A stretch of DNA of 64,000 nt from Phycisphaerae bacterium RAS2 (lineage in GTDB: Bacteria; Planctomycetota; Phycisphaerae; UBA1845; UTPLA1). The notes under the pieces are model-generated. The model searched no databases, had not been told where the DNA came from, and saw nothing but the letters and a program-made list of their open reading frames with translations. The translations under genes were made by a program, and so were the position numbers. The stretch lies in the NCBI GenBank assembly GCA_007753915.1, contig CP036352.1, positions 1,736,001-1,800,000 of the forward strand, in the 5' to 3' direction. The stretch's first letter is position 1. Every line of letters begins with the position of its first letter. Shown here piece after piece: positions 28,368 to 47,995 of the stretch.

Positions 28368-28384
28368 CCAGAAGGATTGCTTGA

Positions 28385-29145: not shown

Positions 29146-30318
29146 ATGCGAATTAGGTGGCGAGGTTTGGAATTGCCGACCCGCGTGGTGCGGGATGACG
29201 CGACCAGCACGCCGACGTATGGGCGATTTTTGATTGAGCCGTTTGAGCGTGGTTTTGGAACCACGGTGGGCAATAGTCTGCGCCGCATCCTCTTGAGCAG
29301 CCTGGAAGGCGCCGCGGTGACGCACGTCCGGCTCAAGGGCGCGGACCATGAGTTCATGTCGATTCCGGGCGTTCTGGAAGACGTGACCAACATCATTCTG
29401 AACGTGAAGTCGCTCATCGTCCGCTTGAGCGGCGAGACCCCCAAGGCGATGCGCGTCAGCGTCAAGGGCCAGGCCAAGACGATGACACCGGTTCGCGCCG
29501 AGCAGATCGTTTGCGACCCGGCGATTGAGATCATCAACAAGGGGCAGCTCCTCTGCACCCTGACGGACGCCGCCGAATTCGACATGGAAATGACCGTCGC
29601 GCACGGGCGAAGCTATGCGACGGCCGACGACAACAAGCAGGGCGAGGATCAGGTCATCGGGATCATCCCGGTCGACTCGGTCTTCAGCCCGGTGAATCGC
29701 GTTCGCTACCGCGTCGAGGACACACGCGTCGGCCAGCGCACCAACTACGACCGGCTCGTGCTGGAAATCTGGACCAACGGCACGATCACGCCCGAAATGG
29801 CGCTGGTCGAGGCTGCCAAGATTCTCCGCAAGCATCTCAATCCGTTCGTGCAGTACTTCGAGCTGGGCAGCGGCCTGGCCATCGAGACGGCCGACGGACA
29901 GAGCGATGCGGGGGCGACCGCGCCGGATGAGGGCATCCTTGCGATGCCGATCTCGCGGCTGGAGCTTTCGGTTCGGTCGAGCAACTGCCTCGCCTCGGCG
30001 CAGATCGCGACGATCGGTGAGTTGGTTCAGATGGACGAGGGCAGCCTGCTGAAGCTGCGAAGTTTCGGCAAGACGTCGCTCAATGAGGTAAAGCGCAAGC
30101 TCGCCGAACACGGGCTTTCGCTTAAAGACTCGCTGCCGATCGATGAATCGATTGACGAGAATGACACCGGCGAAGATGAATCCGCTTCGGGCGGGATGCT
30201 CGGCGGTCTGGATTCAGGCTCGATGCCGGCGCCGGGCGCGCTGGATTCAATGAGCGGCCATTACTCGCCGCCGCCGACCGGCGATCCTGCTGCCAGCAAT
30301 CCGGGGTTTAACGGGTAG
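29146..30318 (+). CDS. rpoA: RNA polymerase alpha subunit
   Basis: 390 residues from the ATG at 29146. This start is preceded, at seven bases, by GGGAGGT (29132-29138), the strongest ribosome binding site in the cluster. The in-frame ATG at 29017 would add 43 non-conserved residues. The N-terminal dimerisation domain has PFERGFGTTVGNSLRRILLSS and MSIPGVLEDVTNIILNVK. The C-terminal domain, with the DNA- and activator-binding helices, is at about 270-340 (RSSNCLASAQIATIGELV and KLRSFGKTSLNEVKRKL). A 50-residue acidic then Gly/Pro/Ser-rich tail follows, longer than in E. coli. Confidence 0.97.
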   Translation: MRIRWRGLELPTRVVRDDATSTPTYGRFLIEPFERGFGTTVGNSLRRILLSSLEGAAVTHVRLKGADHEFMSIPGVLEDVTNIILNVKSLIVRLSGETPKAMRVSVKGQAKTMTPVRAEQIVCDPAIEIINKGQLLCTLTDAAEFDMEMTVAHGRSYATADDNKQGEDQVIGIIPVDSVFSPVNRVRYRVEDTRVGQRTNYDRLVLEIWTNGTITPEMALVEAAKILRKHLNPFVQYFELGSGLAIETADGQSDAGATAPDEGILAMPISRLELSVRSSNCLASAQIATIGELVQMDEGSLLKLRSFGKTSLNEVKRKLAEHGLSLKDSLPIDESIDENDTGEDESASGGMLGGLDSGSMPAPGALDSMSGHYSPPPTGDPAASNPGFNG

Positions 30319-30388
30319 GCAGCGTTGCGGTCCAATTCGGGTCGGTTCGTGCGGCAAGCGCCGTTGAAGCAGAAGAAGGTAAGACACC

Positions 30389-31060
30389 ATGCGACATAAG
30401 AAATCCGGACGACACCTGGCCCGCACGACAGCGCACCACCTGGCGATGCGCCGGAACATGGCCCAGAGCCTGTTCCAGTACGGCCAGATCGAAACGACCC
30501 TGATTAAGGCAAAGGAAGTGCGTCCGTTCGTGGAGCGGCTCATCACGCTCGCGCGGCGCAACACGCTCGTGAGTCGCCAGAGAATCATGGCGATGCTGAA
30601 CGATCGCGCGTGCATTCTGCCCGACCAGCAGGAAGCCTATGAAGCCATGAGCTACGCCGATCGCGATCGGGTGCTGCGCGCTCGCACCGGCCGCCGGCAC
30701 CGGACCGGTGCGGTTCCGGCCAGTTACAACAAGAACAAGTTTACGTTTGTCGCCACGTCGGTCGTTCACCGCCTGGTGACCGACATCGCCCCGAAGTTCG
30801 CGGATCGACCCGGTGGTTACACGCGGATCGTGCGACTGGCCAAGCGTCGCATCGGTGACGGCACCGATCTTGCTTTGCTTCAGTTGGTCGGGTTCGACGA
30901 TCAGAAGCCCACCGACCTGAAGAAGATGGTCGGCTCCCGCCGGAAGAAGACCGCCGAGCGGAAGCGTGCGATGGAAGGCAAGCGCACCAAGTCCGGCAAG
31001 GCTGCGGCCAAGGCGGCTCCCGCTCCGGCTGCGAAAGCGGCTGATCCGGCGGCAGAGTGA
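30389..31060 (+). CDS. rplQ: 50S ribosomal protein bL17 with extended C-terminus
   Basis: 223 residues against about 120-130 for most bacteria. MRHKKSGRHLARTTAHHLAMRRNMAQSL and QIETTLIKAKEVRPFVERLITLARR are the diagnostic N-terminal part. A mid-region expansion follows, and GGYTRIVRLAKRRIGDGTDLALLQLVG is the conserved core end. The last 50 residues are a Lys/Ala/Pro-rich extension (KKTAERKRAMEGKRTKSGKAAAKAA type). It closes the translation cluster. Confidence 0.97.
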   Translation: MRHKKSGRHLARTTAHHLAMRRNMAQSLFQYGQIETTLIKAKEVRPFVERLITLARRNTLVSRQRIMAMLNDRACILPDQQEAYEAMSYADRDRVLRARTGRRHRTGAVPASYNKNKFTFVATSVVHRLVTDIAPKFADRPGGYTRIVRLAKRRIGDGTDLALLQLVGFDDQKPTDLKKMVGSRRKKTAERKRAMEGKRTKSGKAAAKAAPAPAAKAADPAAE

Positions 31061-31609: not shown

Positions 31610-34555
31610 ATGACTGACGTGCGACGCGAGCGAACAGGAGTTGGGCATGGCGCTGCGGGCGCGAGTCGGGCGTTCCAGGCGACCGTAGCTTTGTGGTTGT
31701 TGGCGTCCGTGGTGATGGCTGGCGACGCGCGACCGGACGTGTCAGCGTTTCATGGAACAGACGATCAGCCGGCGCTGAAGCTGCTTTCCTATCGATTCGA
31801 GCGGTCGGACGCCAACTTCGCGGACATGGTTGATTTTCCAGGTGGGGCATCGCTCCTGGGCAAAGCGGTGGAATGGGGCGACCTTGTCCTGCTGTATCGA
31901 GCTGACGGACGTGCGGATGTGTTCCGTGCGGACGACGTGGACGCGATTCGACTTCGGCGATTCCGCCGCCACTTTGAGAAGCCTTCCAAAGCGGATTTGA
32001 CGGTCGCATACATCGAGCGGCTGCCGCGCGACAGCAGCTTCCACGGGCATGTCACGCTTGCCGACGCTCTGCCGCGCTTGGATATCGATCCGTCGAAGAT
32101 CGCGTCGCATCCGGCTCCCGGTAGCGATGTTACTTTTCGCATCCATGTGCGCAATGCGGGTTTCGCGGCGTCCGCGCCGTGCAAGTGGCGCGCGTTGGTG
32201 GACGGCAAGGAGATCGCAACCGGCGATCTGGCGGAAGTGGCGGCCGGAGCGGAGCAGGTCGTCGAGGCGCGATGGAAGTGGGACGCGGCGGGAGGCATGT
32301 TGCGCGTCGAACTCGACCCGGCCAATGCGACATCGGACTGGCTGAAGTGGAACAACGTTCGAGAGGAGTCGCTTACGGCGCAGGCGGTCGCCGTGGTCGT
32401 GGACAAGACTTATTACGAGCGATTCCGGCAGTATCCCAACATGCTGGATTCGTTCTGCTTTGAGGACTGGCTGGCCGCGCAGATGGGATCGCTCAATGCG
32501 TTGTTTGCCGATTCGGTGCATCCGTCGTCGCCGCAGGGGATCCTCGAGCGCGTGCGGTGCGATCGAATCCTTGTGGTTGAGGAGCCGGATGCGCCGCGGC
32601 ACCGTGATGCCTGGATGCCGACACTCCGTCAGGGCGGAAAGAGCGACGGCTTGGCAGAATACGGCGCGCTCGTTGTTCTCGATGACACCGGGGACGACCG
32701 GTGGGACATGTACCACCCGTTGAAGATCAACTGGGGCCTCCTGGGTGATATTGCCGGGCAAATGGGCTTGGTGGATTGGACGGTGACCGACACCCGATTG
32801 GATCAGTGCCTCGCTGTGAACCGGTTCGAGCGGTATGTGCAGCGGCAGCATTTCTTCCCTTATCCGAACACGTTCATGTATCAGCACGGGCCGTTCCGGT
32901 TCAGCGAAGTGTGCGCGGGCTACCTGAATCGAATGGTCGGCAAGCCGCGAGGAGTGAGCGGAGAATTTCTATACGACGTGCCCGAGACGATCTCGCTTGA
33001 TGTCCGCGCGTGCAACGGCGCGCCGCTCGAGGGCGTGCGCGTGGACGTATACCAGTTGCAGGCCGGCGGCGAACTGAAAGGGTATATCGCCGGCGCCGGC
33101 CCGCGCGATCCATTGTATTCGTCGGTGACCGGGCCGGATGGACGAGTGGACCTGCTCAATCAGGATGCGCCGTCGCACCAATCGCCAGGCGGGTATGCGC
33201 TTCGAGCGAATGCATTCGGCCGCATCGCGACCGATGGGTCCAATGGCCTGCTGTTGCTCAAGATTCAATCCGGCGATGCGGAGGAGTATCACTTTCTCCG
33301 GCTTTTTGATGCAAACGTTGCCTTTCTGCGCGGAAACAAGCAACAATGGACGATTGAGGTTCGCACGAACTTCGGCGTGCCCGATGGGCCCAAGTCCGTG
33401 CTGACGATTCCAATTCTCATGGACGATCGCAAGAGCAAGGCGCCGCCGATGCAGGCGACCTGGACGATGCCGCCGATTCCCGATCCGACGTCGATTGAGG
33501 AGTTTCGCGTTTACAAGCGAACGGGTTTCGGTGGGGACAACGACTACCCGAATACGCTTGTCGGCACGCTGCGCCGCATTCATCGCCGCTGGTCGCTGGT
33601 GCATGAGGGCACGTATTTCGATCCGAAGCACGTGCTGAATGATCGCTACTCACGTGACACGTTCTACACCGTCGCGCCGGTGGATCGGCAGGGGCGGCAG
33701 GGTTCGCTCGCGCCGCCGGGTTACCTCGCGCACGACAAGTATCCGCGCAAGTTTGCGATTGATGTTGACTGCGCGTTCATCACGCTGGGCGGTCCGGGGC
33801 CGATGCAGATGCTTCGCTGGGATGGCGACATCGGCACGCATCCATTCGGCCCGCGCACGCTCATGGCGCCGGGCTATCGACCCGATTTCGCCGGCATCGC
33901 CGTGACGGCCGATCATCAGCTCGTCGTGACCGATCCGACGAATCATGTCCTGGCGTTATACGATCTTCGCGGAGACTTGCAGCAGATTATCCCGCAGCGT
34001 GCGTATTGGCCGGGTTTTTCAAGCGACAAGCCGGGCGAGTTTTTCGAGCCGGTCGACGTGGCGGTCGATGGCGACGGGCGGATGTACGTGGCTGACCGAG
34101 GCAACAACCGCGTGCAGATCCTCGATGCGCAGGGGCATCCCCTCTCCAATCTGGATGAGGGCTTTCGCTTCGACGCGCCGCATGCCGTCGCGTATTCGAA
34201 CGGTCATATCGCGGTGACGGATCATGCGGGGCGGCGCGTTCGGTTGTACGACATCCGCGAAGGCCAAGCCAAGCTGGTCCGCGAACTGACGGATCTCGTC
34301 GAGGCGGATCGAGCCATTGTCAGTCGGAGCGGGCGGCTGTACGTCACGGGATTCAACCCGATTTCCGAGGAATACGGGCTGATGATCTGGGCAAAGGACA
34401 ATGACGTGCAACCCGTCGAAACAAGGACAAGCGTCGATATGGGCCTCGTGCATGAGCCGCGCGGATTGTATCTGTACACGAACACCCTCGACCAGGACTA
34501 CGCATACTTCGTGAACATCTTCCCGTTCGACGTGCGGCGCCTGTTCATGGAGTGA
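31610..34555 (+). CDS. large secreted protein with CARDB-like and NHL-propeller domains
   Basis: 981 residues. A basic N-terminus and a hydrophobic run (about 24-37, ending VMAGDA) indicate export. Residues 170-240 (FRIHVRNAGFAASAPCKWRALVDGKE) resemble a CARDB or Ig-like adhesion module. The central part (about 250-560) is unrecognised. At about 755-900, NHL-type repeats are clear (FFEPVDVAVDGDGRMYVADRGNNRVQIL and similar), forming part of a beta-propeller that usually binds protein or polysaccharide. A GGGAGG ribosome binding site precedes the ATG. No catalytic motif is recognised. It is an isolated gene, convergent with a propeller lipoprotein. Confidence 0.85.
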   Translation: MTDVRRERTGVGHGAAGASRAFQATVALWLLASVVMAGDARPDVSAFHGTDDQPALKLLSYRFERSDANFADMVDFPGGASLLGKAVEWGDLVLLYRADGRADVFRADDVDAIRLRRFRRHFEKPSKADLTVAYIERLPRDSSFHGHVTLADALPRLDIDPSKIASHPAPGSDVTFRIHVRNAGFAASAPCKWRALVDGKEIATGDLAEVAAGAEQVVEARWKWDAAGGMLRVELDPANATSDWLKWNNVREESLTAQAVAVVVDKTYYERFRQYPNMLDSFCFEDWLAAQMGSLNALFADSVHPSSPQGILERVRCDRILVVEEPDAPRHRDAWMPTLRQGGKSDGLAEYGALVVLDDTGDDRWDMYHPLKINWGLLGDIAGQMGLVDWTVTDTRLDQCLAVNRFERYVQRQHFFPYPNTFMYQHGPFRFSEVCAGYLNRMVGKPRGVSGEFLYDVPETISLDVRACNGAPLEGVRVDVYQLQAGGELKGYIAGAGPRDPLYSSVTGPDGRVDLLNQDAPSHQSPGGYALRANAFGRIATDGSNGLLLLKIQSGDAEEYHFLRLFDANVAFLRGNKQQWTIEVRTNFGVPDGPKSVLTIPILMDDRKSKAPPMQATWTMPPIPDPTSIEEFRVYKRTGFGGDNDYPNTLVGTLRRIHRRWSLVHEGTYFDPKHVLNDRYSRDTFYTVAPVDRQGRQGSLAPPGYLAHDKYPRKFAIDVDCAFITLGGPGPMQMLRWDGDIGTHPFGPRTLMAPGYRPDFAGIAVTADHQLVVTDPTNHVLALYDLRGDLQQIIPQRAYWPGFSSDKPGEFFEPVDVAVDGDGRMYVADRGNNRVQILDAQGHPLSNLDEGFRFDAPHAVAYSNGHIAVTDHAGRRVRLYDIREGQAKLVRELTDLVEADRAIVSRSGRLYVTGFNPISEEYGLMIWAKDNDVQPVETRTSVDMGLVHEPRGLYLYTNTLDQDYAYFVNIFPFDVRRLFME

Positions 34556-34616: not shown

Positions 34617-35996
34617 TCATTCCGGCGACAACCAGCCGTCGCGCGTCTCTTCGGGCCATGCCTTGCCGAACGGCTGCGCGGTGTCTGACTTCCAATGCGT
34701 CAATTCACCGCCGTCTTTGCCTTCCGGGGACTTGTACGGCCGAACGAACGTGAATTCCGCGTTGTTCCGCCAAGCGGGCACGATCTGGGCGCGATCCACG
34801 ACCTCCTCGGCTTGAACGGCCTTGGATTCGCCACTGGTGAAATCAAAGAGATAGACACGGCCCTTTGAGCCGGGAATCAGTACGCGCTTTTCGTCGGGGG
34901 CAAGCTGAAACAGAGCCGACGTCATTTCAATCGGCTCGCTGAAATCGCGCGGCAGGACGCGCAGAACCGACGCGGGTGTTCGAGGGTCCAGTACAAAGAG
35001 CGTCCATCGCTGCGGCATGTCTCGATTCGTCGCGGGCAGCGAGAACTCCACCGATGAAAACATGAGCCGTCCATCGCGCAGCGCCCGCACGTTGAATAGC
35101 TGGCTGAACAGCACGCCGACGTGGTCTTCCTGTTTGTTAAAGGTCGGCAGGAGCGAGCCATCCTCGGCCGCCACTTGAATCGTGGAGACGCTTCCGAGCG
35201 TCACGTTGGATTCGTTTCCGCCGTCTGCCGGACCGCAAAGGTACACCAGGGTGCGCCCGTCGGCGCTCCAGTCGAATCCCATCGCGACATTTGCGTGAAT
35301 CAAACGGGGCTCGCCCCCATTGGTCGATGCAACAAACAAGCCGACGGCGTCCTTTTGCGCCGCGGCGCTCTTCGCGAGGTACGCGACAGCCTTGCCCGTC
35401 GGCGACACGGCCGGCATCCAAATCTCGTCGAGCGTTCGACGGAGGACCTTTCCGGGCGTCAGCTTTTCGCCTTCGAGGTCGAATACTTGAAGCGTCCAGA
35501 CCGTGGCGTCGGCCTCGCGAAAGTCGATCCATTTGTCGCCGAGTTTTTCGGGCAGCCCGTCCGGCAGCTTGTCTCGCAGATAGAAGAGGATGGCTGCGTC
35601 CATCCCCGGCGTGTGCGATTCCTGTGCGTCGAGCTTGAATTGATTCCAGTCACCGTTGTACGCCAGCACGCGCTCCTTTGCGGTGCGCGCAGCCTTTTCG
35701 ATTTCCTGAATCTGTTGTGGCGAGTAGATCGGCGCGATCTGATCCCATCCGGCCACCTGGCTGGCAAATGCAATGGCCAGCCGACGGTTGTCAGGATACC
35801 AGGCGGGTCGCGCTGAGGAGCAATCCAACCGTGCGCCGAGGAGCTTTCCGTCGCCGTCGACAAAACGCAGCCCCTTGTTGGTTGAAATGGCTGCTGTCTT
35901 CCCGTCGTGCGACCAGGCAACGCGCTTCTCGGGGATGCAGGCTGCGCCGGCGAGCAGGGTGACGCTGACGGTGATGAGTACCAAGTTGCGGGTCAT
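34617..35996 (-). CDS. beta-propeller (WD40/TolB-like) lipoprotein
   Basis: 459 residues. The signal sequence MTRNLVLITVSVTLLAGAAC suggests lipidation at Cys20. Propeller-like repeats include VAWSHDGKTAAI, PAWYPDNRRLAIAF, AVSPTGKAVAYLAK and DWSADGRTLVYLCG, the S/PxDG-type blades typical of TolB/WD40-like PD40 repeats. It is likely an outer- or inner-membrane-anchored protein that binds a partner through its propeller face. Its ATG overlaps the stop of the probable anti-sigma gene, with AGGAG eight bases upstream, so it belongs to the sigma operon and may be the sensor or a target of that system. Confidence 0.85.
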   Translation of the reverse strand: MTRNLVLITVSVTLLAGAACIPEKRVAWSHDGKTAAISTNKGLRFVDGDGKLLGARLDCSSARPAWYPDNRRLAIAFASQVAGWDQIAPIYSPQQIQEIEKAARTAKERVLAYNGDWNQFKLDAQESHTPGMDAAILFYLRDKLPDGLPEKLGDKWIDFREADATVWTLQVFDLEGEKLTPGKVLRRTLDEIWMPAVSPTGKAVAYLAKSAAAQKDAVGLFVASTNGGEPRLIHANVAMGFDWSADGRTLVYLCGPADGGNESNVTLGSVSTIQVAAEDGSLLPTFNKQEDHVGVLFSQLFNVRALRDGRLMFSSVEFSLPATNRDMPQRWTLFVLDPRTPASVLRVLPRDFSEPIEMTSALFQLAPDEKRVLIPGSKGRVYLFDFTSGESKAVQAEEVVDRAQIVPAWRNNAEFTFVRPYKSPEGKDGGELTHWKSDTAQPFGKAWPEETRDGWLSPE

Positions 35997-36478
35997 GATC
36001 CTTCTCCTGTTTGGGGCAGAGTAATCGGGGAAGCCCAGTTCAATGTGCGTGAGTGTCGTGTGTGATTGGTCTGCGTGCGTCGAAGCCGGTCAAGCGACCA
36101 GAAGCCGGAAGCACCCGTTTCGAATTGTCCAGCAGCGACACGGGGCGTTGAGCGCATTTCCGGCGTGGTGATCGACCCGGAGCGCGTTCCGGCAAAAAAG
36201 GCCAGGACGATCGCCGCCGCCGCGGCGAGGCGTTGCAGGCCGCCCACGCGCAACAGTGGAGTCCTCGTGGCGCGAAGCGGCGGAAGAGGGGTCAGGTGCG
36301 GTATAGCCGGTGCGGCCAGCGTCGAGCGTACGCGGTCAATCGTCGAGGCGATTTCGTGTTCGACCAAGGAATCCGGCGATTCGGCTGCAAGGTAGGCATC
36401 GAGCAGGGCGGACGCGTCCGCGTTCAATTCGCCCAGCTCGCGGTCGACGATCAATCGTTTAAGGGTTGCGGGATCCAT
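35993..36478 (-). CDS. probable anti-sigma factor, membrane-anchored
   Basis: 161 residues from the ATG at 36478, which has GGAG eight bases upstream; an upstream GTG at 36502 lacks this spacing. The N-terminal helical part (MDPATLKRLIVDRELGELNADASALLDAYLA) has the size and acidic/helical character of anti-sigma domains. It shows no HxxxCxxC zinc motif, so it would be a non-zinc type. A hydrophobic segment lies at about 78-97 (LQRLAAAAAIVLAFFAG), followed by a short hydrophilic C-terminal part. Position directly after an ECF sigma gene and overlap with a lipoprotein gene support the assignment; sequence alone would not. Confidence 0.65.
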   Translation of the reverse strand: MDPATLKRLIVDRELGELNADASALLDAYLAAESPDSLVEHEIASTIDRVRSTLAAPAIPHLTPLPPLRATRTPLLRVGGLQRLAAAAAIVLAFFAGTRSGSITTPEMRSTPRVAAGQFETGASGFWSLDRLRRTQTNHTRHSRTLNWASPITLPQTGEGS

Positions 36479-36508: not shown

Positions 36509-37045
36509 TCATGGTCGATTTGACACGGTCGCCTGGGACGGCTCGCCCAACTGCCTTCGCAGGGCTTCAACCGCGTGGTGAATCCTTGACCGCACCGTCC
36601 CGACGGGAATGCGAAGCGCCTCGGCGATTTCGGCATAGGACAACTCGTCGCGCAGGCGTAGCTCCAACACCTCGCGCTGCGCAGCGGGCAGTCCCGCGAT
36701 GGCCATGCGAACTTCCTCCAATCGGTCATCGGCGTTCATCGCGACGACTGGAACGTCCAGATCGTCTCCCGCCATCGTATGCATCCGCCTCCTGCGAATG
36801 TGATCGCGAAGGTGGTTGCGCGCAATTCCAATCAGCCAGGCACCGTGCGAATCAGCCGCAAAGTAACCGCTCGGGTCGGTCGCAATCGTGACAAACGTCT
36901 GTTGCAAGAGCTCCTCGCAGTCGTGGGCGTTCGCCAGCCGGGCGCGCAGATAAGCCATGACCTTTCGGCCGTGTGTTTCGTACGCGTCTTGAAGCCATGC
37001 CTGATTCATGGGATCGGCGGCGTCCGGCCGCAGTGCCGCATTCAT
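36509..37045 (-). CDS. ECF-family RNA polymerase sigma factor
   Basis: 178 residues, with only sigma regions 2 and 4, as in extracytoplasmic-function factors. Region 2 (about 15-90) has MAYLRARLANAHDCEELLQQTFVTIA and GAWLIGIARNHLRDHIRRRRM. Region 4 (about 112-165) has GLPAAQREVLELRLRDELSYAEIAEALRIPVGTVRSRIHHAVEALRR, the helix-turn-helix recognising the -35 element. It is followed after 30 bases by the probable anti-sigma gene. The pseudokinase gene ends 105 bases upstream on the same strand. Such sigma factors usually drive their own operon; no convincing own promoter was recognised. Confidence 0.95.
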   Translation of the reverse strand: MNAALRPDAADPMNQAWLQDAYETHGRKVMAYLRARLANAHDCEELLQQTFVTIATDPSGYFAADSHGAWLIGIARNHLRDHIRRRRMHTMAGDDLDVPVVAMNADDRLEEVRMAIAGLPAAQREVLELRLRDELSYAEIAEALRIPVGTVRSRIHHAVEALRRQLGEPSQATVSNRP

Positions 37046-37150
37046 CCTAAGAGTGGAGGAAGAACGGCCCCAAGTTCACTGGATTTCGCGGAAATCTCGA
37101 CAGTCTATAAGTGCGGGCAGATTATGTGTTTATGGGTGGGTTGCGGGCAA

Positions 37151-39778
37151 TCAGGGGATGAGGGACTGGATCCGGCTGATCTTTTCTTCGACATCCGGCC
37201 CATTCTTGATCCGCTGCGCCTCGCGATACGCGATAAGAGCCGCGGTCATGTCGCCACGAAGGACGGCCTTGTCGCCGCGGTCTATCGCGTTGCCGCGCCG
37301 TGCCTGAAGGATTTTGTCCTGCACGTCCTTTCGCGCCGACTCCGGCAGTTGGGGCAGGGCGCTTCGGAATAACTGCTCGGCCTCTTCGAATTGATTGGCA
37401 GCAAGGGCAGCGTCGCCGCGCTTGGCCAGGCGCGCCGCTTCGAAGGCCGGTGCGTAGCGGTCAACTTGTCGACGGGCCTCATCGGTGTCGGCGTTGTACA
37501 GGGAGTTGCGCAGCAGGTCCTCGCTGGCGAGAACATCGCCAGCGGCGATGGCGCTCTTGGCCTGTTCGAGGAAGAGGTGGGCGCGGGCGGTCTTGAGCTT
37601 GGCTTCTACTTCAGCCGTCGGCGAGGTTTCGCTCGCGCGCTCATAAGAGCTGACGGCGAGATTGTAGTCGCGGGCCAGAAGCGCCTCGTCACCCGTGAGA
37701 ATCCACTCGAATCGATTCTTGGCGTCGATGATTTCCTTTCGCAGGTCGCGTGTTTCGCTCGTAATGCGAATGGCCTCGGCCTGGCCTAGGCTGCCCAGCG
37801 CTGCCGCGAAGTTGTCGCGCAAGAGGTATCGCCGCGACTCCTTGAGCGACTGGCGATATCGGTAGTCGCGCTTGGCCGATTCCAACGCATCGCGCAACGA
37901 CTCGGCGTCGGCTCCACCCTTTCCGACCTGCTCTTCGTACGCAGCGAAGGCACGCTCGGCAGCGGTGAAATCATCGCGGGCCAGGGCTTCCATGCCTTCG
38001 GTGACGAGTCGCTCGTTGTCCTTCTTGTCCCACATTCGCGTCTGGAGTTCCTGAATGCGGAACGACTCGGCGCCTTGCTCGCGCGCAGAAGCCAGTCGCA
38101 ATTGGACGGCTTCATAGTCGCCGCGATCCAGGGCGCGATGTGCTTCAATGAGATCCAACCATCCGCCGGCCGCACGTTGAAGCGCCACATCGGCGGGGTC
38201 CGAGAGTTTCATGGCGGACAGTTCGCGGAATCGCCCGCGGGATTCCTCGAGCTGGCCGGATCGAAATGCGTCCTCGGCAAGCTTGAAGATGATTCGCGCG
38301 GGGCTGCCCGTTGACGCATGGAAGTACGATTGCCACGCCCATTTTCCGCCGTACGTGGCGACCGCAATCATTAGCACAGCCGCGAACGCGCTTCTCAAGA
38401 TGCGCGGATAGCGCTTCTTGTAGCTCTCGTGCGCTTCCGGGGCGGATGGCACGTGCTCGATTCGTGGAATGACGCGCGCGGCGGGCACAGGCGAACGGGC
38501 AGGTCGGCGTGGCTGTCGACGCGAGGCCGCGGGCCGCTGATGAACCGACGGGTCGGCAGAAGCGGCCGTCGTAGTTTGACGTGCGTCGGTTGTTTGGCCC
38601 GGTGAGACGCGTGCAGCCGTTCGGACTGTGAATGGCTGCGTCGCAGGTCGACTCGGAGGAGTAGGTCCTGCCGCGGACGCCGAATCGCGCGGGGGCGACT
38701 GGGCGCTTGGTGGCGCCGAGGTAAATGGCTGCCGGTCTTGCGTTGGTGCCACGAACGGGGCGCGAGCGGCCGCCGGCGCGGTGCGCCGAACGGAAGGCGC
38801 TGCCGGTTGAATGGTCGGCGAGGACTTTCGCTCGGAGGGAGCAGCCGCCAACGTGTCGATCGCTTCGTCGATGGAAGTGAAGCGGTCTTCCAGCCGCTTG
38901 GCAGTCATTCGCTCAATGACATCCGCAAGTGTCCGCGGCACGAGGGAGTTGACCGAGTCGGCGCGGGGCAGGGCTTGATTGAGGTTCGCAACCCAGTCGA
39001 TCCATTGACCGACTCCTGCGGGGCCGGTCCCTGCAACCTGTGCGATGAACTGCTCCATGGCTCGCCGGCCGATGCACACTTCGTAAAGGGTCATGCCGAG
39101 GCTGTAAACGTCGACGCGGTCGTCGTAGCCCAGTTCCATCAGCAGTTCGGGGGCGGCATAGCGTGGCGTAATCACCGGCGGCCGGGTGGCGTCGCTCTCG
39201 TGAGCCGCGCAGGAAAGGTTCGCGACTTTCCCCACGCCGGCGGGCGTGACAAGAATATTCGTCGGGTCGATGCACCGGTGGACAATGCTCAAGCTGTGGA
39301 GCAGTTTCAGTCCGGCGCCAGCGGTACGAAGCAGTCTCGGTGCGTCCTTGGGGCCGACACGTCGCTTGGCGACGAGGGAATCGAGCCAGTGGCCATCGAC
39401 GTATTCCTCGACGATGAACAGCCCGACTTCGTCTTCAATCAGCTCGAAGACATTGACGACAAATCGCGGATCAAAGGAGCATCGCGCCAGGAAATGAGCT
39501 TCGCGCTTGAAGTTGCCGCACGCGATGGGATCGTCGAGCAGGTCGGTCGCCATTTGCTTGAGCGTGACGAGCCGGTCCAGCATGCCGTCGCGCGCTTTGT
39601 ACACGACCGCATGGTGATAGGTTCGGATGCGCTCAAGGATGCGATACTTGCCCAGTCCGGTGCCGGTCGGCAGGCCTGGCTGCAGAGGCTGCGCGCGCGA
39701 GTCCAGCGCGCCGTCGGGCAAGGCTTCGCCTGCGGCGTCCGGTGACTGACCGGGCTGGCGGTGCTGCGAATCTGTCAT
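37151..39778 (-). CDS. membrane-anchored serine/threonine pseudokinase with TPR-like C-terminal domain
   Basis: 875 residues from the ATG at 39778; the frame extends further upstream but overlaps the divergent efflux operon. The kinase-like domain is at about 44-310: Lys74 (VTLK), Glu93 and the APE motif (209-211) are conserved. The catalytic HRD reads H167-R-C169, the next Lys is Asp171 (HRCIDPTN), the DFG motif reads N187-L-S, and the glycine loop has lost its glycines (RIRTYHHAVVY). Loss of both catalytic Asps predicts a pseudokinase. Residues 320-455 are a Pro/Ala/Thr-rich linker, 461-481 a membrane helix, and 490-875 a TPR-like helical domain, probably periplasmic. It precedes an ECF sigma operon. 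Confidence 0.9.
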   Translation of the reverse strand: MTDSQHRQPGQSPDAAGEALPDGALDSRAQPLQPGLPTGTGLGKYRILERIRTYHHAVVYKARDGMLDRLVTLKQMATDLLDDPIACGNFKREAHFLARCSFDPRFVVNVFELIEDEVGLFIVEEYVDGHWLDSLVAKRRVGPKDAPRLLRTAGAGLKLLHSLSIVHRCIDPTNILVTPAGVGKVANLSCAAHESDATRPPVITPRYAAPELLMELGYDDRVDVYSLGMTLYEVCIGRRAMEQFIAQVAGTGPAGVGQWIDWVANLNQALPRADSVNSLVPRTLADVIERMTAKRLEDRFTSIDEAIDTLAAAPSERKSSPTIQPAAPSVRRTAPAAARAPFVAPTQDRQPFTSAPPSAQSPPRDSASAAGPTPPSRPATQPFTVRTAARVSPGQTTDARQTTTAASADPSVHQRPAASRRQPRRPARSPVPAARVIPRIEHVPSAPEAHESYKKRYPRILRSAFAAVLMIAVATYGGKWAWQSYFHASTGSPARIIFKLAEDAFRSGQLEESRGRFRELSAMKLSDPADVALQRAAGGWLDLIEAHRALDRGDYEAVQLRLASAREQGAESFRIQELQTRMWDKKDNERLVTEGMEALARDDFTAAERAFAAYEEQVGKGGADAESLRDALESAKRDYRYRQSLKESRRYLLRDNFAAALGSLGQAEAIRITSETRDLRKEIIDAKNRFEWILTGDEALLARDYNLAVSSYERASETSPTAEVEAKLKTARAHLFLEQAKSAIAAGDVLASEDLLRNSLYNADTDEARRQVDRYAPAFEAARLAKRGDAALAANQFEEAEQLFRSALPQLPESARKDVQDKILQARRGNAIDRGDKAVLRGDMTAALIAYREAQRIKNGPDVEEKISRIQSLIP

Positions 39779-39858: not shown

Positions 39859-39864
39859 AGTATA
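39859..39864 (-). promoter_or_regulatory. -10-like element for the pseudokinase gene
   Basis: Reading leftward, TATACT occurs at 39864-39859, about 80 bases upstream of the ATG. No convincing -35 box accompanies it. The 270-base region to the divergent efflux gene also has TATATT at 39955-39960 on the plus strand, so both genes may be expressed from here. Confidence 0.3.
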
Positions 39865-40048
39865 CCCGTTCCGGCCGCCCGAATCTGCCCTGGCTTGAGC
39901 GCGGATCGAAGGCGGCATGCGAGCCGCCGACGTTCGATGGCCGATGAACAGGCCTATATTGGACCTTCCGATGAGGTCGCGTTGCCATCCGGCTGATCGG
40001 ACCTAGAATCCGGACATGCTGTGGACTGTTCAGCGAGGGTGGAGGCGG

Positions 40049-41308
40049 ATGCGATTCATTTTCCTGATTGCACTTGGCGGGTTGATGCTGTTGGCTGCGA
40101 CGGAGGCGCGCGGGCAGCCGGGGATGGCGCGCGCGGTGGAAGTGGCGGCAGTGGATCGCGAACCCGTCGCGCCGACGATTCAACTCGTTGGTACGGTCCG
40201 GCCGCGCATTCGCACGGTGGTCGCGACGGAAGTCGCGGGCTTGGTGGCCGAGTTGCCCGTGTCGGAGGGCGACCCGATAAAGAAGGGCGACGTGCTTTGT
40301 CGATTGCGCGAGACGCAAAGGCAGCTTGCGCTGGAGGAGTCCAAGGCGAGACTATCGGAATTGCGGGATGTCATCGCAGAGCGCGAGGCGACGCTTCGCA
40401 AGACCGAGTTCGAGGCGCAGCGGATGGAGGGGTTGTACAAACTTGAGCGCTGCACCGAGAAAGAGTTCCGCGACGCTCGCGAAGAGCACGAAGCGGCCAA
40501 GGGGCGGCACCAGCAATCGGTCCATGCGCACGCAGCCTACCAGGCGACGGTCGACCGCATGGCGGACGATGTGGCGCGGATGACAATTCGTTCGCCGTGC
40601 GATGGGTTCGTCGTCGGCAAGCAAACCGAAATCGGCAGCTGGGTGGACCTGGGCGGGGCGGTCGTGGAGCTGATCGACCTGTCCACCGTCAAGATTCGCG
40701 TTCCATCGCCCGAGTCGGCCGCACCATGGTGTGTGCCGGGCGAGCCGGTGGTCGTTCACATCGACGCGCTAGGACGGAGCTTCGATGGAAGGATTGCGCG
40801 GCGTGTGCCCGATGCCGATCCGCAGGCACGAACGGTACCGATTGAAGTCGGCGTACCCAATGCGAAGTCTGAAATCATGGCGGGAATGTTTGCACGCGTT
40901 GCGGTTCCGAACGGGCCGCGGCGCGTCGCGCCGATCGTACCGAAGGATGCAGTCGTTACACGCGGTGCACAGCAGATGGTATTCTCGATCACCGAAACGG
41001 CCGAGGGCTTCCTGGCGGTTCCTGTCTCGGTGCAAATCGATTCGGAACTCGCTGATCGTGTTTCGATTTCCGGGCCGGGCGTGGAGTCGCTGCGCGCGGT
41101 CGTCATCCGTGGCAACGAATACATGTTCGGGCCGTCGCCGGTCGGATTGTCGCCGGAATCGGCCGCGCTGTTGAAGCCCGTCAAATCGCCGACCAGTCAG
41201 CCTGCGAATGCGACAAGCCAGCCCGCGACGCCGAAGCGCGCGGCGATGATGAACGAAGCTCTGCCTGCCCACCTGATCGGCCGCGAAGGCCGCCCGCGCA
41301 CGAGTTGA
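40049..41308 (+). CDS. RND efflux periplasmic adaptor (HlyD/MFP family)
   Basis: 419 residues from the ATG at 40049, which opens a signal peptide (MRFIFLIALGGLMLLAATEARG) and has purine-rich GAGGG and GGAGG upstream; the ATG at 40016 would add 11 residues before it. The lipoyl-like half (VVATEVAGLVAELPVSEGDPIKKGDVLCRL) is followed by an alpha-helical hairpin (about 85-175), the second lipoyl half (IRSPCDGFVVGKQTEIGSWV) and the beta-barrel domain. A Thr/Ser/Pro-rich tail ends it. It links the inner-membrane pump encoded 13 bases downstream to an outer-membrane channel not found in the window. Confidence 0.93.
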   Translation: MRFIFLIALGGLMLLAATEARGQPGMARAVEVAAVDREPVAPTIQLVGTVRPRIRTVVATEVAGLVAELPVSEGDPIKKGDVLCRLRETQRQLALEESKARLSELRDVIAEREATLRKTEFEAQRMEGLYKLERCTEKEFRDAREEHEAAKGRHQQSVHAHAAYQATVDRMADDVARMTIRSPCDGFVVGKQTEIGSWVDLGGAVVELIDLSTVKIRVPSPESAAPWCVPGEPVVVHIDALGRSFDGRIARRVPDADPQARTVPIEVGVPNAKSEIMAGMFARVAVPNGPRRVAPIVPKDAVVTRGAQQMVFSITETAEGFLAVPVSVQIDSELADRVSISGPGVESLRAVVIRGNEYMFGPSPVGLSPESAALLKPVKSPTSQPANATSQPATPKRAAMMNEALPAHLIGREGRPRTS

Positions 41309-41321
41309 AGGCGGCTGCTCC

Positions 41322-44300
41322 ATGCAACTGATTGAATTCTTCATCAAGAACCCGGTCAAGGTGGCCGTCGGCGTGTTGCTGCTGGTCTTGTTCGGCCTGC
41401 TGACCGTGGTGCCGCCGTCGATTCTCCCGTCGCCGATTCGCGTGCCGGTTCAGTTGACACCGAACATGGACGAGCCGGTCGTGTCGGTGACGACGCTCTG
41501 GGAGGGCGCGAGTCCGGAAGAGGTGGAGCGCGAGATCATCGATCCGCAGGAGGAGGTACTCAAGAGCGTCACGGGGCTGCGGAAACTCACGTCCGCGGCA
41601 TCGCAGGGCAGCGGGGCGATCACGCTGGAATTCGTGGTCGGGACCAATCAGGACGTTGCGAAGCAGGACGTGAGCGATGCGCTGCGTCGCGTGAAGTACC
41701 AGATTCCGCTGAACGAGTTTGAGAATCCGATCGTGATTTCGGGCCGGCCGTTCGGTGAAGAGGCGATTGCCTGGATGATCCTGTCCAGCGACGAGCCGGG
41801 CGTGTCGGTCCCGTCGATGAAGACGTTCGTAGATGACAACGTCAAATCGGCTTTGGAGCGGGTGGAGGGGATCGCGTCGATCGGCGTGTATGGCGGGCGC
41901 GAGCGTGAGGTGCAGGTGGTGGCGGACCCGTGGCGGCTGGCGCAGGCGGGGATCACGTTCAACGAGCTGGCGCAAGCGCTGACGAGTCAGAACACGAACG
42001 TTTCTGCCGGTGCGAGCGCGCAGGGCAAGCGGGACATCGTGTTGCGCACGATGGGGCAGTTTGCGTCGCTGGAGGAGATTCGCCGGACCGTGATCAAGAC
42101 CGGCCCCGGCGGACCGATCCGCGTGGGCGACGTGGCCGAGGCGAAGGACGACTTCAAGAAACAGTACGAGTTCGTGCGCAGCGAAGGGCGAGAGGTCATC
42201 GCGCTCGCGGCCTATCGCGAGACCAACGCGAACGTCATCGAGACCATGGAAGGATTGCGCGAGGCGGTGACGGAGGTGAACCGCGAGGTGCTGTCGCCGC
42301 GGGGCCTCGATCTTGAGTTGACAAACGTCTATGACCAGACGGTGTACATTCATTCGGCCATCGGACTCGTGAAGGACAACATCTATTTCGGCGGGGCGCT
42401 GGCGATTGTCGTGTTGTGGTTGTTTCTTCGGAGTTGGTCGGCAACCGGCATCGTGGCGCTGGCGATCCCGATCTCGGTCATCGGCACGTTCTTGATCATT
42501 CCGCTTGCGGATCGCACGGTGAACGTCGTGATGCTCGCGGGGCTGGCGTTCGCCGTCGGCATGGTCGTCGACAACGCCATCGTCGTCCTGGAAAACATTT
42601 ACCGTCACATGGAGATGGGCAAGCCGCGCGAGAAGGCGGCGCTGGATGGATCAGCCGAGGTCTGGGGCGCGGTTCTGGCGAACTCGCTGACGACGGCGAT
42701 CGTGTTCCTTCCGATTATTTTCGTGAAGGAAGAGGCCGGACAACTGTTCCGCGACATCGCGATTGCGATCTCGGCCGCGGTTCTCCTCTCCTTGGTCGTC
42801 TCGCTGACGGTGATTCCGCCATTGGCAGCACGTTATCTCACATCGAGCCGTGCCAAAGCTCGAGAAGAGGGCGGACGCTTTGCCCACGCGCTGGGCCGAT
42901 TCGTCGGATGGATCAACGGACGAGTTCTAACGCGGCTGGCGGTTGTGCTGATCTCGACGGTCGGTTCGGTCTGGTTGTCGATGCGATTGGCGCCCGAACC
43001 GAGTTACCTGCCGTCGGGCAATCAGAATCTGATTTTCGGATTCCTCATTACGCCGCCGGGCTACAACGCGCACGAGTTCAGGCAGATCGGCATTTCACTG
43101 GAAGAGGGCAACCCCGCAAAGGGGCAAATCGGGATTCGCCCGTTCTGGGAGGCGGAGCCTGGCTCGGAACAATACACGAAACTGCTGGGCGACTGGAGCA
43201 CGATGGTTGAGAAGTTCGTGATCCCCGGCAAGCTGGGCGAGATCGCTTCACAGGAAGCCATCCTCAAAGAAAGCCATCGCACGCGTCGCGAGCGAGCCGA
43301 GGCTCGCGCGCGAATTCGCGAAGTTCGGCGCGACATCGCCCTGTGGCGGACGCCGCCGCCGCCGATTGACAATTTCTTTTACGTGTCATTTGGCGGGCAG
43401 GCCATCATGGGCTGTTCGAGCAAGGACCCCGGCAACGTGCGTCCGCTGCTCAACGTGCTGAACAGCACGGGTTTTTCGGTGCCCGATTCGTTCGCGATCT
43501 TTTTCCAGACATCGATCTTTACCAATCTCGGCGAGAGCAATTCCGTGGAGATCGAGGTGCGCGGTGATGACCTGGACCGCGTAACGGCCGCGGCGGGCAA
43601 CATCGCCATGGCCTGCCGGGAACAGTTCGGAGCCATGCCGGAGTCAACACCGCGAAACTTCCAACTGGGCCGGCGCGAGGATCGGCTCGTACCGGATCGT
43701 GTGCGAGCGGGGGAAGTGGGGCTGAACGTGGCGGACATCGGGTCCATTGTGCGCGCCTGCGGCGACGGCCGCGTGGTCGGGCAGTATCGCGAAGGGGGCG
43801 ACAGCGTCGATCTGACGATCAAGTTCGCCGGGCTGGACGACCCGGACCAGGCGCGGGGGGCGACAAGCCGCATCACGGAGACGCCCGTCTTCACGCCGTC
43901 CGGACGGATCGTGCCGCTTTCGTCGGTGTGCCGGCTGGAACGGACAACCGCCCCCCAGGAAATCAATCACATTGAGACGCAGCGCTCGGTGAAACTGACG
44001 ATTCGGCCGCCGGAAGGCATGGCGCTGCCTGATGTCATCAACACGATTCAGAACGAGATCGTCGCGCCGATGCGAACCGCCGCGGGGTACGGTACAGAGC
44101 AATGGAAGATTGAACCGGGTATTGTCGTCGGTCTCGCGGGCAACGCGGACAAACTTCGTACAACGTGGGACGCACTCAAGTGGCTCCTGTTTCTGTCGTT
44201 CCTGATCTGCTACCTGCTCATGGCCGGTCTGTTCGAGTCCTTTGCCTATCCATTTGTCATCATTTTCACCGTGCCGTTCGCGGTGATCGGCGGGTTCTTC

Positions 44301-44897
44301 GGCCTGGCGCTGGTTCATGAGGCGACATGGGCCGATCCAACCGTGGCCGTGCAGCAACTGGACATGCTGACCATTCTGGGCTTTGTGATTCTGCTGGGGA
44401 TCGTTGTGAACAACGGCATCCTGATCGTTCACCAGACGCTGAACTACATGAGCTACGGACGCACGGCGGAGCAGGCCATCGCGGAATCGGTGCAGTCACG
44501 TTTGCGGCCGATCTTGATGACCGTGATGACGACGTTTTTCGGCCAGTTGCCGCTGGTGATTCGACCGGGGTCCGGCGCGGAACTGTATCGCGGACTGGGC
44601 GCGGTTGTGTTGGGTGGGCTGCTGGTTTCGACCTTGTTCACGTTGATTGTGGTGCCGTCGGTGCTATCGCTCTTTCTTGGCGCACGCATGCATTTGAGCC
44701 GGGCGTTGTTCGGCAGGCGTGCCAGACAGGCAGGTGGTGAGTTTGCCTTGGCAGCCGCACACTCGGCGTCGTTTGCGTCGCTCGAAAACACGTCCGCTGC
44801 CGTCGCCGCCGCGCCGGGCGCTTCGAGTCATGCTGCGTCCGCGATTGGATCGAGCGACGTGTCGCGGGTGCTCGCAGGTTCCCCCGATCAGAGCTAG
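41322..44897 (+). CDS. RND-family multidrug/metabolite efflux permease (AcrB-like)
   Basis: 1191 residues with the AcrB layout: one N-terminal membrane helix, a large periplasmic loop, TM2-6 (about 345-500), TM7, a second periplasmic loop and TM8-12 (about 945-1130). TM4 carries LAGLAFAVGMVVDNAIVVLENIYRHM, with the proton-relay Asp; the second Asp of AcrB is Asn, as in many non-enterobacterial homologues. The second periplasmic loop has an insertion with Arg/Glu-rich helix EVRRDIALWRTPPPP. A poorly conserved Ala/Ser-rich tail follows TM12. The proton-driven pump works with the adaptor encoded upstream; substrate unknown. Confidence 0.94.
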   Translation: MQLIEFFIKNPVKVAVGVLLLVLFGLLTVVPPSILPSPIRVPVQLTPNMDEPVVSVTTLWEGASPEEVEREIIDPQEEVLKSVTGLRKLTSAASQGSGAITLEFVVGTNQDVAKQDVSDALRRVKYQIPLNEFENPIVISGRPFGEEAIAWMILSSDEPGVSVPSMKTFVDDNVKSALERVEGIASIGVYGGREREVQVVADPWRLAQAGITFNELAQALTSQNTNVSAGASAQGKRDIVLRTMGQFASLEEIRRTVIKTGPGGPIRVGDVAEAKDDFKKQYEFVRSEGREVIALAAYRETNANVIETMEGLREAVTEVNREVLSPRGLDLELTNVYDQTVYIHSAIGLVKDNIYFGGALAIVVLWLFLRSWSATGIVALAIPISVIGTFLIIPLADRTVNVVMLAGLAFAVGMVVDNAIVVLENIYRHMEMGKPREKAALDGSAEVWGAVLANSLTTAIVFLPIIFVKEEAGQLFRDIAIAISAAVLLSLVVSLTVIPPLAARYLTSSRAKAREEGGRFAHALGRFVGWINGRVLTRLAVVLISTVGSVWLSMRLAPEPSYLPSGNQNLIFGFLITPPGYNAHEFRQIGISLEEGNPAKGQIGIRPFWEAEPGSEQYTKLLGDWSTMVEKFVIPGKLGEIASQEAILKESHRTRRERAEARARIREVRRDIALWRTPPPPIDNFFYVSFGGQAIMGCSSKDPGNVRPLLNVLNSTGFSVPDSFAIFFQTSIFTNLGESNSVEIEVRGDDLDRVTAAAGNIAMACREQFGAMPESTPRNFQLGRREDRLVPDRVRAGEVGLNVADIGSIVRACGDGRVVGQYREGGDSVDLTIKFAGLDDPDQARGATSRITETPVFTPSGRIVPLSSVCRLERTTAPQEINHIETQRSVKLTIRPPEGMALPDVINTIQNEIVAPMRTAAGYGTEQWKIEPGIVVGLAGNADKLRTTWDALKWLLFLSFLICYLLMAGLFESFAYPFVIIFTVPFAVIGGFFGLALVHEATWADPTVAVQQLDMLTILGFVILLGIVVNNGILIVHQTLNYMSYGRTAEQAIAESVQSRLRPILMTVMTTFFGQLPLVIRPGSGAELYRGLGAVVLGGLLVSTLFTLIVVPSVLSLFLGARMHLSRALFGRRARQAGGEFALAAAHSASFASLENTSAAVAAAPGASSHAASAIGSSDVSRVLAGSPDQS

Positions 44898-45830: not shown

Positions 45831-46265
45831 ATGAGCCACGACCCCATCAGCGCCGGCGCGCGCCAATTCCAGCGTCATGCGACGCAGTTTCGCGCGAGAA
45901 TCGAGCCGCATCCCGATCAGGCCGAGCAGTTTCGGTTGAGTTACTCCGGATTCTCGGACGATCTGGCCGTCGTCGATGTCAGCGCCGGCGGCATTGCCCT
46001 GCACTCCTGCTTCTTCGTGCCGCGCAACCTGCGCATGGCGGTCACGATTCTCGATCTGAAGACGGCGGACGGCCGGCAATTGGGCGATGTGACGGTGCGC
46101 GTCGTGGTCCGGCGGTGCTTGTTGGTGGATTACAAGCCCACCTACCAGGTCGGCATGCAGTTCATCGATCCGACCGGCACGGACGAGCAGATGTTCGTGC
46201 AGGTGGCAACGGATGCGGGCGCGCTTTCGAAGCCGGTTCAACTGGAGGCCGCCGGTGCTCGCTAA
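45831..46265 (+). CDS. PilZ-domain-like protein
   Basis: 144 residues. The second half of a PilZ domain is visible: DVSAGGIAL (49-57, fitting the D/NxSxxG part of the c-di-GMP site), then strands with RVVVRRCLLVDYKPTYQVGMQFID. An RxxxR arginine pair is not clearly positioned, so c-di-GMP binding is uncertain. The stop lies 11 bases inside the following ATPase gene. Being first in the pilus/secretion operon, it probably modulates or contacts the assembly ATPase. Confidence 0.75.
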   Translation: MSHDPISAGARQFQRHATQFRARIEPHPDQAEQFRLSYSGFSDDLAVVDVSAGGIALHSCFFVPRNLRMAVTILDLKTADGRQLGDVTVRVVVRRCLLVDYKPTYQVGMQFIDPTGTDEQMFVQVATDAGALSKPVQLEAAGAR

Positions 46266-47925
46266 CGCCAACGATGAGCTGCGCGATCAACTCCTTCGTG
46301 AGGGGGTGCTTCCCCCCGCGGACGTGGAGGCTGCCTTCAAACAGGCGGAAGAAGTCGGCGTCGAACTGGAGACCATCCTTCGCAAGTCGCACCGGTTGTC
46401 GGACGCGCATCTGACGGCCCTGCGTGCGCTGCGGCAGAGTGTGACGTATTGCAACGTTGCGGACTTCCTTCCCGCGCTGTCGAACGCGGCGCTGGTCAGC
46501 GAAGAACTGGCGCGACGCCATGTGATGTTTCCGTTGTTTCAGTGCGACGGCGTCATCACGCTCGGCATCAAGGATCCAAACGATCTGACGGCGATCGATC
46601 AGGTTCGCCGACTGACGCGACAGGAAGTCGATGTCGTCCTCGCGGGCGAGACGGAGCTGCTGGGGCTGATCGAGCGGGCGTACGGCACAAGCCGCTACAT
46701 CGAGGAATCGTCGGTTGCCGATTCACTCTCGGAATTGTCGGACGCCTCGGCGCTGGACGACAGCCAGCCGGTCATCCGGCTCGTCGAGAACCTGATCAAC
46801 GAGGCGGTTCGACAGAGCGCGTCGGACATCCACATCGAGCCGGCCGAACACGAGTTGCGAATTCGGGTGCGCGTGGACGGCGTGCTGCGGGAGATTGCCG
46901 CGCCGCCCCTGGCGCTTCACCGGGCGCTGGTCTCGCGCATCAAGGTCATCGCAAAACTGGATATCTCCAAGACGCGTACCCCCCAGGACGGCGCGTTTCA
47001 CCATCGAAACGGTGAACACGAAGTCGTGATCCGTGTGTCGATGCTGCCATCGGTGTTCGGCGAGGCCGTGGTGTTGCGTATCCTGCGAAACGAGTCGGAT
47101 TCGGTGACGTTGAGCGATCTCGGCATGCCGCAGCGGGTGCTCAATCGGTTTCGCGCGGTGGTCTCGAACGCGCACGGAATGATTCTGGTGTCGGGCCCGA
47201 CCGGGTCAGGCAAGTCCACGACGCTGTACGCCGGAATCAAGAGCATCGTCTGCCCGCAGAAAAACATCATCGCCATCGAAGACCCGGTGGAGTACCGAAA
47301 CAGTCGCATCCGACAGGTGCAGGTCAACGCCGAGGCGGACCTCACATTTGCCAACGGCCTGCGCTCCGTACTTCGTCAGGACCCGGACGTGATCATGGTG
47401 GGCGAGATTCGAGATCGCGAAACCGCGCAGATTGCGGTGCAGGCGGCACTGACGGGGCACCTTCTTTTGAGCACGGTCCATACAAACGATTCGGTCAGCG
47501 CGATCGCGCGGCTTCGAGACCTGGGCGTGCCGGAATACCTGATTTCGTCATCGCTGCTCGCCGTGCTGGCGCAGCGGCTGTGTCGGCGCGTTTGCCCGGA
47601 GTGCAAGGCGCCGGAAAGCCCCCCGGAGTTCCTTCTTCGCGCGATCGGCCTGGACTCGGCCGAGAAACTGGATTTCGAGCCGATGCGGGGAAGGGGCTGC
47701 CGCCGCTGCGTTGGAAGCGGATACGTCGGGCGAGTCGGTTTGTACGAGTTGTTCGAATTGAATGAGACGTACGCGGAAATGGTAGTGCATGGCAAGAGCA
47801 GCGAGGCGATTCGCGCGGCCGCACGGGCCGGTGGCATGCAGTTCATGGTACAGGACGGGGTCGAAAAGGTTCGAGCCGGTTTGACGACAGTTGAAGAAGT
47901 CGCTCGCGTAGCGGGTCGGGCGTAA
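46255..47925 (+). CDS. GspE/PilB-type pilus assembly or secretion ATPase
   Basis: 556 residues from GTG at 46255, with GGAGG six bases upstream; longer in-frame starts lack one. The N-terminal MshEN-like region (10-150) can bind c-di-GMP in relatives. The ATPase core has Walker A GPTGSGKST (about 314-322), an Asp box, Walker B and a His box (AALTGHLLLSTVHTNDSVSA). The tetracysteine zinc motif is C447-P-E-C450 and C482-R-R-C485. It overlaps the PilZ-like gene and is 70 bases before the GspF gene. The cytoplasmic hexamer powers polymerisation of the pseudopilin encoded downstream. Confidence 0.96.
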   Translation: MLANANDELRDQLLREGVLPPADVEAAFKQAEEVGVELETILRKSHRLSDAHLTALRALRQSVTYCNVADFLPALSNAALVSEELARRHVMFPLFQCDGVITLGIKDPNDLTAIDQVRRLTRQEVDVVLAGETELLGLIERAYGTSRYIEESSVADSLSELSDASALDDSQPVIRLVENLINEAVRQSASDIHIEPAEHELRIRVRVDGVLREIAAPPLALHRALVSRIKVIAKLDISKTRTPQDGAFHHRNGEHEVVIRVSMLPSVFGEAVVLRILRNESDSVTLSDLGMPQRVLNRFRAVVSNAHGMILVSGPTGSGKSTTLYAGIKSIVCPQKNIIAIEDPVEYRNSRIRQVQVNAEADLTFANGLRSVLRQDPDVIMVGEIRDRETAQIAVQAALTGHLLLSTVHTNDSVSAIARLRDLGVPEYLISSSLLAVLAQRLCRRVCPECKAPESPPEFLLRAIGLDSAEKLDFEPMRGRGCRRCVGSGYVGRVGLYELFELNETYAEMVVHGKSSEAIRAAARAGGMQFMVQDGVEKVRAGLTTVEEVARVAGRA

Positions 47926-47995
47926 TTCAAGTTCTGTGGGCTCTTGAGCGCTTTGGAGCGCTGGCCGTGGCAAAGGATTCGACGGAGTAGCAGCC

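Follow-up and report, generated by a model that had tools for sequence, protein, structure and literature searches.

EssB/YukC, the transmembrane pseudokinase of type VII secretion, acts as a structural scaffold (PMC12599244), and a 2025 review of bacterial pseudokinase families names none for the phylum of the genome studied here (PMC12599244). Active kinases are also connected with ECF sigma factors. The ECF43 sigma factors lack the acidic motif of region 2.2 and an anti-sigma factor, and are activated by an adjoining active kinase; their DAED-type acidic motif is replaced by uncharged or threonine residues (PMC13147305, PMC8999054). In the more usual arrangement, the sigma factor is held by an anti-sigma factor, and the class I domains of such proteins need no zinc motif (PMC7406223). 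Here, we analyzed a locus in which the gene for a membrane pseudokinase adjoins genes for an ECF sigma factor, a candidate anti-sigma factor and a propeller lipoprotein. Our comparison across related genomes suggests that the kinase and the ECF module are probably neighbors rather than one machine.

Gene organization and surroundings of the locus

The window, the whole stretch of 64,000 nucleotides that was analyzed, corresponds to G000:C1:1736001-1800000 in the 4.32-Mb single-contig source genome (G000). An earlier note on this DNA had described four leftward genes that run together, and all four are confirmed on the minus strand, where they span 39778-34617 in the order pseudokinase, ECF sigma factor, anti-sigma candidate and PD40 propeller lipoprotein (the last three are hereafter called the trio):

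37151-39778, minus strand: membrane pseudokinase-TPR protein, 875 aa (Pkinase match, structure model, alignment)
36509-37009, minus strand: ECF sigma factor, 166 aa (revised start ATG 37009)
35993-36478, minus strand: anti-sigma candidate, 161 aa (start ATG 36478; helices, transmembrane segment, weak anti-sigma matches)
34617-35996, minus strand: PD40-type beta-propeller lipoprotein (PD40 match, invariant Cys20)

The locus is flanked by rpoA-rplQ-HIT on one side, and by an FAA hydrolase gene followed by type II secretion genes on the other. S10-spc-alpha-type ribosomal protein genes occupy 14306-31060, with rpoA (29017-30318) and rplQ (30389-31060) in this stretch, and because they lie directly left of the locus, the gene order around it is stable. 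A convergent gene at 31610-34555 encodes a CARDB/NHL-repeat protein of 981 aa, and in 12 of the 16 family genomes this NHL gene has the trio or the kinase as its neighbor. The divergent genes for a membrane-fusion protein and an RND (AcrB-type) efflux protein (40016-44897) adjoin the kinase in 13 of 16, trio-less genomes included. Further along, a type II secretion-like cluster (46213-56640) encodes a T2SSE ATPase, a T2SSF protein and a secretin, with short prepilin-like ORFs in between. Beside these neighbors, a trio that adjoins the kinase in 9 of 16 genomes is not exceptional, and the synteny of kinase and trio is weak functional evidence, because the gene order forms a stable backbone and unrelated neighbors are retained no less often.

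The same surroundings offer another possible role for the pseudokinase, that of an assembly scaffold for the divergent mfp-RND efflux system or for the nearby type II secretion/pilus cluster. The efflux genes stay beside the kinase more widely than the trio does and are kept in the trio-less clade, and the type II secretion genes for the ATPase, the secretin and inner-membrane protein F lie at a distance of 1-17 kb. However, the kinase occurs without adjoining mfp-RND genes in G005, G013 and G012, and the neighborhood may be plain conserved backbone beside ribosomal genes. We consider such a role unlikely, and return to the reading of two adjacent units, for which the separate histories of the kinase and the trio are informative.

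Conservation and dissociation of the kinase and the trio

Full-length kinase orthologues are found in 16 of the 17 genomes of the GTDB family, the copy in G012 being distant. The four-gene synteny, a survey of which the earlier note had proposed as a check, holds in part: the kinase, ECF, anti-sigma and propeller genes are contiguous in 9 of the 17 genomes, whereas five keep the kinase without the trio. At the kinase, no trio adjoins in G009, G006, G010, G003, G002 and G004. The convergent NHL gene comes directly after the kinase in G009, G010, G003, G002 and G004, and elsewhere follows the trio. Whole-genome searches for the propeller and the sigma factor located both at another genome site in G006 and G012; the same searches did not find the trio in G002, G003, G004, G009 and G010, two of which are incomplete (G010, 75%; G003, 85%). 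In the kinase tree, G006, G009, G003, G002 and G004 form one clade with support of 100/99, a topology consistent with a single loss or relocation of the trio.

The trio in turn extends beyond the kinase. Across the order, the propeller profile has matches in 28 of 114 genomes, which belong to families f1, f3, f7 and f8, and ECF and anti-sigma genes adjoin the propeller in most of the f3 and f7 loci that contig ends leave intact. No pseudokinase relative was found beside the f3/f7 trios within the 4-17 kb fetched. In G034 and G046, the two near-complete, trio-bearing f3 genomes that were checked and on which kinase absence in such genomes rests, no full-length kinase orthologue was found, and the best kinase matches cover the kinase domain only (E about 1e-17). 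A close-homologue search of genome contigs with a single sequence returned one weak match only.

Two side observations concern the wider distribution of these genes. The G012 contig that carries the trio also encodes, about 4 kb from the trio, another kinase relative that has an ECF-like gene of its own alongside (L068:1-3776). Propeller relatives that have no detectable ECF or anti-sigma gene alongside in the fetched stretch occur at L128 (G083, f8), L127, L130 and L139; some of the loci L127, L130 and L139 are cut by contig ends, and L128 is uncut.

Promoter elements and proposed transcription units

The kinase and sigma genes had been placed in one operon across the 105-base gap between them, but this gap carries a conserved ECF-type promoter with the pattern TGAACTT…CACTnnTAGG. 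A second, different element lies upstream of the kinase gene:

37046-37077, minus strand: predicted ECF-type promoter (-35 GAACTT, 37077-37072; -10 CACTCTTAGG, 37055-37046)
39859-39864, minus strand: TATACT element resembling a -10, 86 nt ahead of the kinase start

A GAAC-type -35 and a CACTnnTA-type -10 are found in the gap of all nine linked genomes with a constant GAAC-to-CACT spacing of 18 nt, the variants in G013 and G008 being weaker. The trios of f3, f7, G006 and G012 are preceded by the same GAACTT together with a GCGCGACGT-type or related -10. Exact GAACTT precedes 18 of 21 orthologous sigma genes (expected 0.8; maximum 4 in 200 dinucleotide shuffles) and 1 of 16 kinase genes. In addition, exact GAACTT-N16-CACTNNTAGG has one match per genome in G000 (4.3 Mb) and G011, both at this sigma gene. 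Given the conserved GAACTT promoter at the sigma gene, the sigma operon is therefore most likely transcribed on its own and autoregulated from its predicted promoter.

Upstream of the kinase, TATACT/TATAAT-type elements are present in 9 of 16 genomes (expected 1.4; maximum 5 in 200 shuffles), among them all seven genomes of the trio-linked clade to which G000 belongs. ECF promoters upstream of the kinase, NHL and efflux genes are not above chance, nor is any terminator in the kinase-sigma gap, and transcripts may read through from the kinase promoter into the trio. A search for further sigma targets in G000, G011 and G014 with GAACTT-N16-CACTNNTAGG and up to two mismatches yielded, the sigma promoter aside, fewer matches than the backward control, and it assigns no other targets.

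These results bear on the mechanism put forward in the earlier note, in which all four genes form one pathway and a ligand-gated pseudokinase scaffold captures or releases the sigma or anti-sigma factor. The contiguity of kinase and trio in nine genomes spread over two deep branches of the kinase tree would fit such a pathway, as would the strong constraint on the kinase domain. However, the kinase is kept and constrained in genomes with no detectable trio, the trio is kept without an adjoining kinase in f3 and f7 and, in two f3 genomes, without any full-length kinase orthologue, the kinase and sigma genes have separate promoter elements, and the NHL and efflux neighbors are retained no less often than the trio. 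An action of the pseudokinase on the sigma or anti-sigma factor thus appears unsupported, and we regard a common pathway as decidedly unlikely. The pattern favors two units that happen to be adjacent, one of which is built around the pseudokinase.

Lost catalytic residues and constraint in the pseudokinase

The description of the first protein as a membrane pseudokinase with a TPR-like domain agrees with a transmembrane segment, the modeled fold and a match to Pkinase that covers residues 57-304 (E 1.3e-27). The protein comprises a kinase-like domain (44-310), a low-complexity Pro/Ala-rich linker (311-458), a transmembrane segment (about 459-487) and a TPR-like helical domain (493-873). In the AlphaFold model, the C-lobe and the TPR superhelix are confident (pLDDT mostly >90 for residues 493-873) and one transmembrane helix spans 459-487; the N-lobe, modeled from 14 sequences only, is of low confidence, and the shape of the pocket is not judgeable from it. 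The solved kinases StkP and PknE match the kinase-like domain with E values of 1e-23 to 5e-19.

An alignment with 13 family members bears out the absence of both catalytic aspartates, at C169 and N187:

39272-39274, minus strand: codon 169, Cys for the HRD catalytic Asp (alignment; same Cys in the sister species G011)
39218-39220, minus strand: codon 187, Asn for the DFG Asp (alignment; Asn in most family members)

The HRD motif reads HRC and the DFG motif reads NLS, with S189 in place of the DFG glycine, and the glycine loop is lost (RIRTYHHAV). By comparison, the VAIK lysine K74 and the αC glutamate E93 are invariant across the 14 aligned orthologues. The sister species G011 has the same residues, and the substitutions are therefore not sequencing errors. 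By its lost residues, the G000 protein is a real pseudokinase and is predicted to be non-catalytic.

The alignment proposed in the earlier note was meant to reveal whether the clade shares these substitutions. The loss is indeed conserved, and it is graded across the 16 family genomes, consisting mostly of the exchange of the DFG aspartate for asparagine. HRD is lost only in the genus of G000 and G011 and once more in G008 (HRN and DFS), and in the family alignment both aspartates are missing only in G000 and G011. The G013 kinase no longer has the glycine loop, and the remaining orthologues mostly keep HRD and have N for the DFG aspartate. At the other end, the relative in G012, a distant member on a long branch, is intact (VGRGGMA, HRDIKPGN, DFG). 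Between G000 and G011, dN/dS is 0.045 for the kinase domain and 0.040 for the transmembrane and TPR part, below the values for the sigma factor (0.18), the propeller (0.12) and the anti-sigma candidate (0.38). For the kinase domain of the trio-less pair G002 and G004, it is 0.010. The kinase-like domain is under strong purifying selection, and is therefore functional and not decaying.

Another reading is that the domain still has atypical catalysis or nucleotide-dependent switching, since K74 and E93 could bind nucleotide without the DFG aspartate. The invariance of these two residues, the retention of the HRD aspartate in most orthologues and the existence of atypical transferases with a kinase-like fold (SidJ) speak for this idea; the lack of both aspartates and of the glycine loop in the G000 domain, together with the low-confidence N-lobe, speaks against it, and we judge it quite improbable. 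The chance is comparably small that the protein descends from a Hanks kinase which formerly acted on an adjoining ECF/anti-sigma pair, decayed step by step to a pseudokinase and still gates the anti-sigma factor through binding, one subclade having later lost the sigma pathway; in that case, the family would display the intermediate states of the decay. We instead prefer a pseudokinase that is non-catalytic and separate from the ECF module.

The ECF sigma factor, the anti-sigma candidate and the propeller

The products of the trio are as described earlier, namely an ECF sigma factor, a likely anti-sigma factor, here termed a candidate, and a beta-propeller lipoprotein. For the sigma gene, the identity stands and the start at 37045 does not: this ATG abuts the -10 element and ATG 37009 fits the homologues, so the protein probably starts at ATG 37009. 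The sigma factor has regions 2 and 4 only, and its region 2.2 keeps the acidic sequence DCEELLQQ (P0002), with acidic residues in 9 of 9 homologues.

The anti-sigma candidate has three N-terminal helices, one transmembrane segment at about 78-99 in the model, and a short extracytoplasmic tail with a conserved FWS...WTSPL motif. Its model has a pLDDT of 64, and a fourth helix is not clearly resolved. No Pfam family was matched. An NCBIfam anti-sigma model matches 3 of 9 homologues (best E 1.2e-4), single members scoring below the cut-off, and two further NCBIfam anti-sigma-E models match the homologues weakly. In a Foldseek fold search, RsiW takes the first two places among ten matches (E 0.57 and 1.1) and MucA ranks tenth. 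These individually weak lines agree together, and the protein is accordingly named as a candidate. The start of the propeller gene overlaps the anti-sigma stop by 4 nt, and Cys20 of the lipoprotein is invariant.

Discussion

We propose that the locus probably consists of two side-by-side units, a self-regulating ECF/anti-sigma/lipoprotein module and an independently transcribed pseudokinase-TM-TPR protein. The proposal builds on gene order, lost residues, separate promoter elements, two-way dissociation and purifying selection, all of which are read from the sequence. In the ECF module, the membrane anti-sigma protein would tether the sigma factor to the inner membrane. The propeller lipoprotein, whose gene is translationally coupled, would probably read or modulate an envelope signal at the extracytoplasmic tail of the anti-sigma protein. 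Once released, the sigma factor would transcribe its own operon from the GAACTT/CACTnnTA promoter. The pseudokinase gene would be transcribed from its own housekeeping-type promoter, and its product would span the membrane once, placing the kinase-like domain in the cytoplasm and the TPR superhelix on the extracytoplasmic side. Architecture and constraint suggest that this protein most likely serves in the envelope as a scaffold or adaptor that crosses the membrane and is non-catalytic.

The locus thus represents a conserved membrane pseudokinase lineage with graded residue loss, from an intact relative in G012 to the loss of both aspartates in G000. Furthermore, it illustrates that adjacency of a kinase and an ECF sigma gene alone is insufficient to infer a sigma pathway of either the phosphorylation type or the scaffold type, whereas a conserved promoter and two-way dissociation can be recognized in sequence comparisons. 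Through its predicted promoter, the sigma module is open to direct testing.

Our comparison with known systems reveals that the pseudokinase resembles EssB/YukC in its cytoplasmic kinase-like domain without catalytic residues, its degraded glycine loop, its single transmembrane segment and its extracytoplasmic part. It differs in the sequence of its kinase-like domain, which is close to StkP/PknB, and in its extracytoplasmic part, a long TPR superhelix. The best 60 sequence matches of solved structure comprise StkP/PknB/PknA and eukaryotic kinases, with EssB/YukC absent from them. The neighbors examined are ribosomal, RND and type II secretion genes, and type VII genes were not found among them. 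Membership in EssB/YukC was rejected, as the closest sequences and the neighbor genes are both of other kinds. By comparison, the StkP/PknB-type PASTA kinases are the closest sequence relatives of the kinase-like domain and have the same single-pass layout, but the present protein has a TPR-like ectodomain, no PASTA domains, and has lost the catalytic residues.

As in the ECF43 pairs EcfP/PknT and EcfK/PknS, the ECF sigma gene adjoins a Hanks-type kinase gene. Unlike these pairs, the kinase here lacks both catalytic aspartates, the sigma factor keeps the acidic DCEELLQQ, an anti-sigma candidate is encoded, and the kinase-sigma neighborship is dissociable. The suggested likeness to kinase-linked, phosphorylation-controlled sigma factors therefore does not hold, and assignment to the ECF43 type was rejected on all three of its features (active kinase, non-acidic region 2.2, no anti-sigma factor). 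The trio is closer to the class I systems RsiW-SigW and RseA-RpoE (PMC7406223), with which it shares a two-domain ECF, a GAAC-type -35, likely autoregulation and a co-encoded single-TM anti-sigma candidate whose N-terminal three-helix segment has no zinc motif. It differs from them in the additional coupled propeller lipoprotein, and in an anti-sigma candidate that belongs to no Pfam anti-sigma family and has no clearly resolved fourth helix in the model. With a sigma factor of regions 2 and 4 only, and a predicted autoregulatory promoter whose place and spacing are conserved, the ECF module has the traits of canonical ECF systems and is best read as ordinary but cleanly delimited.
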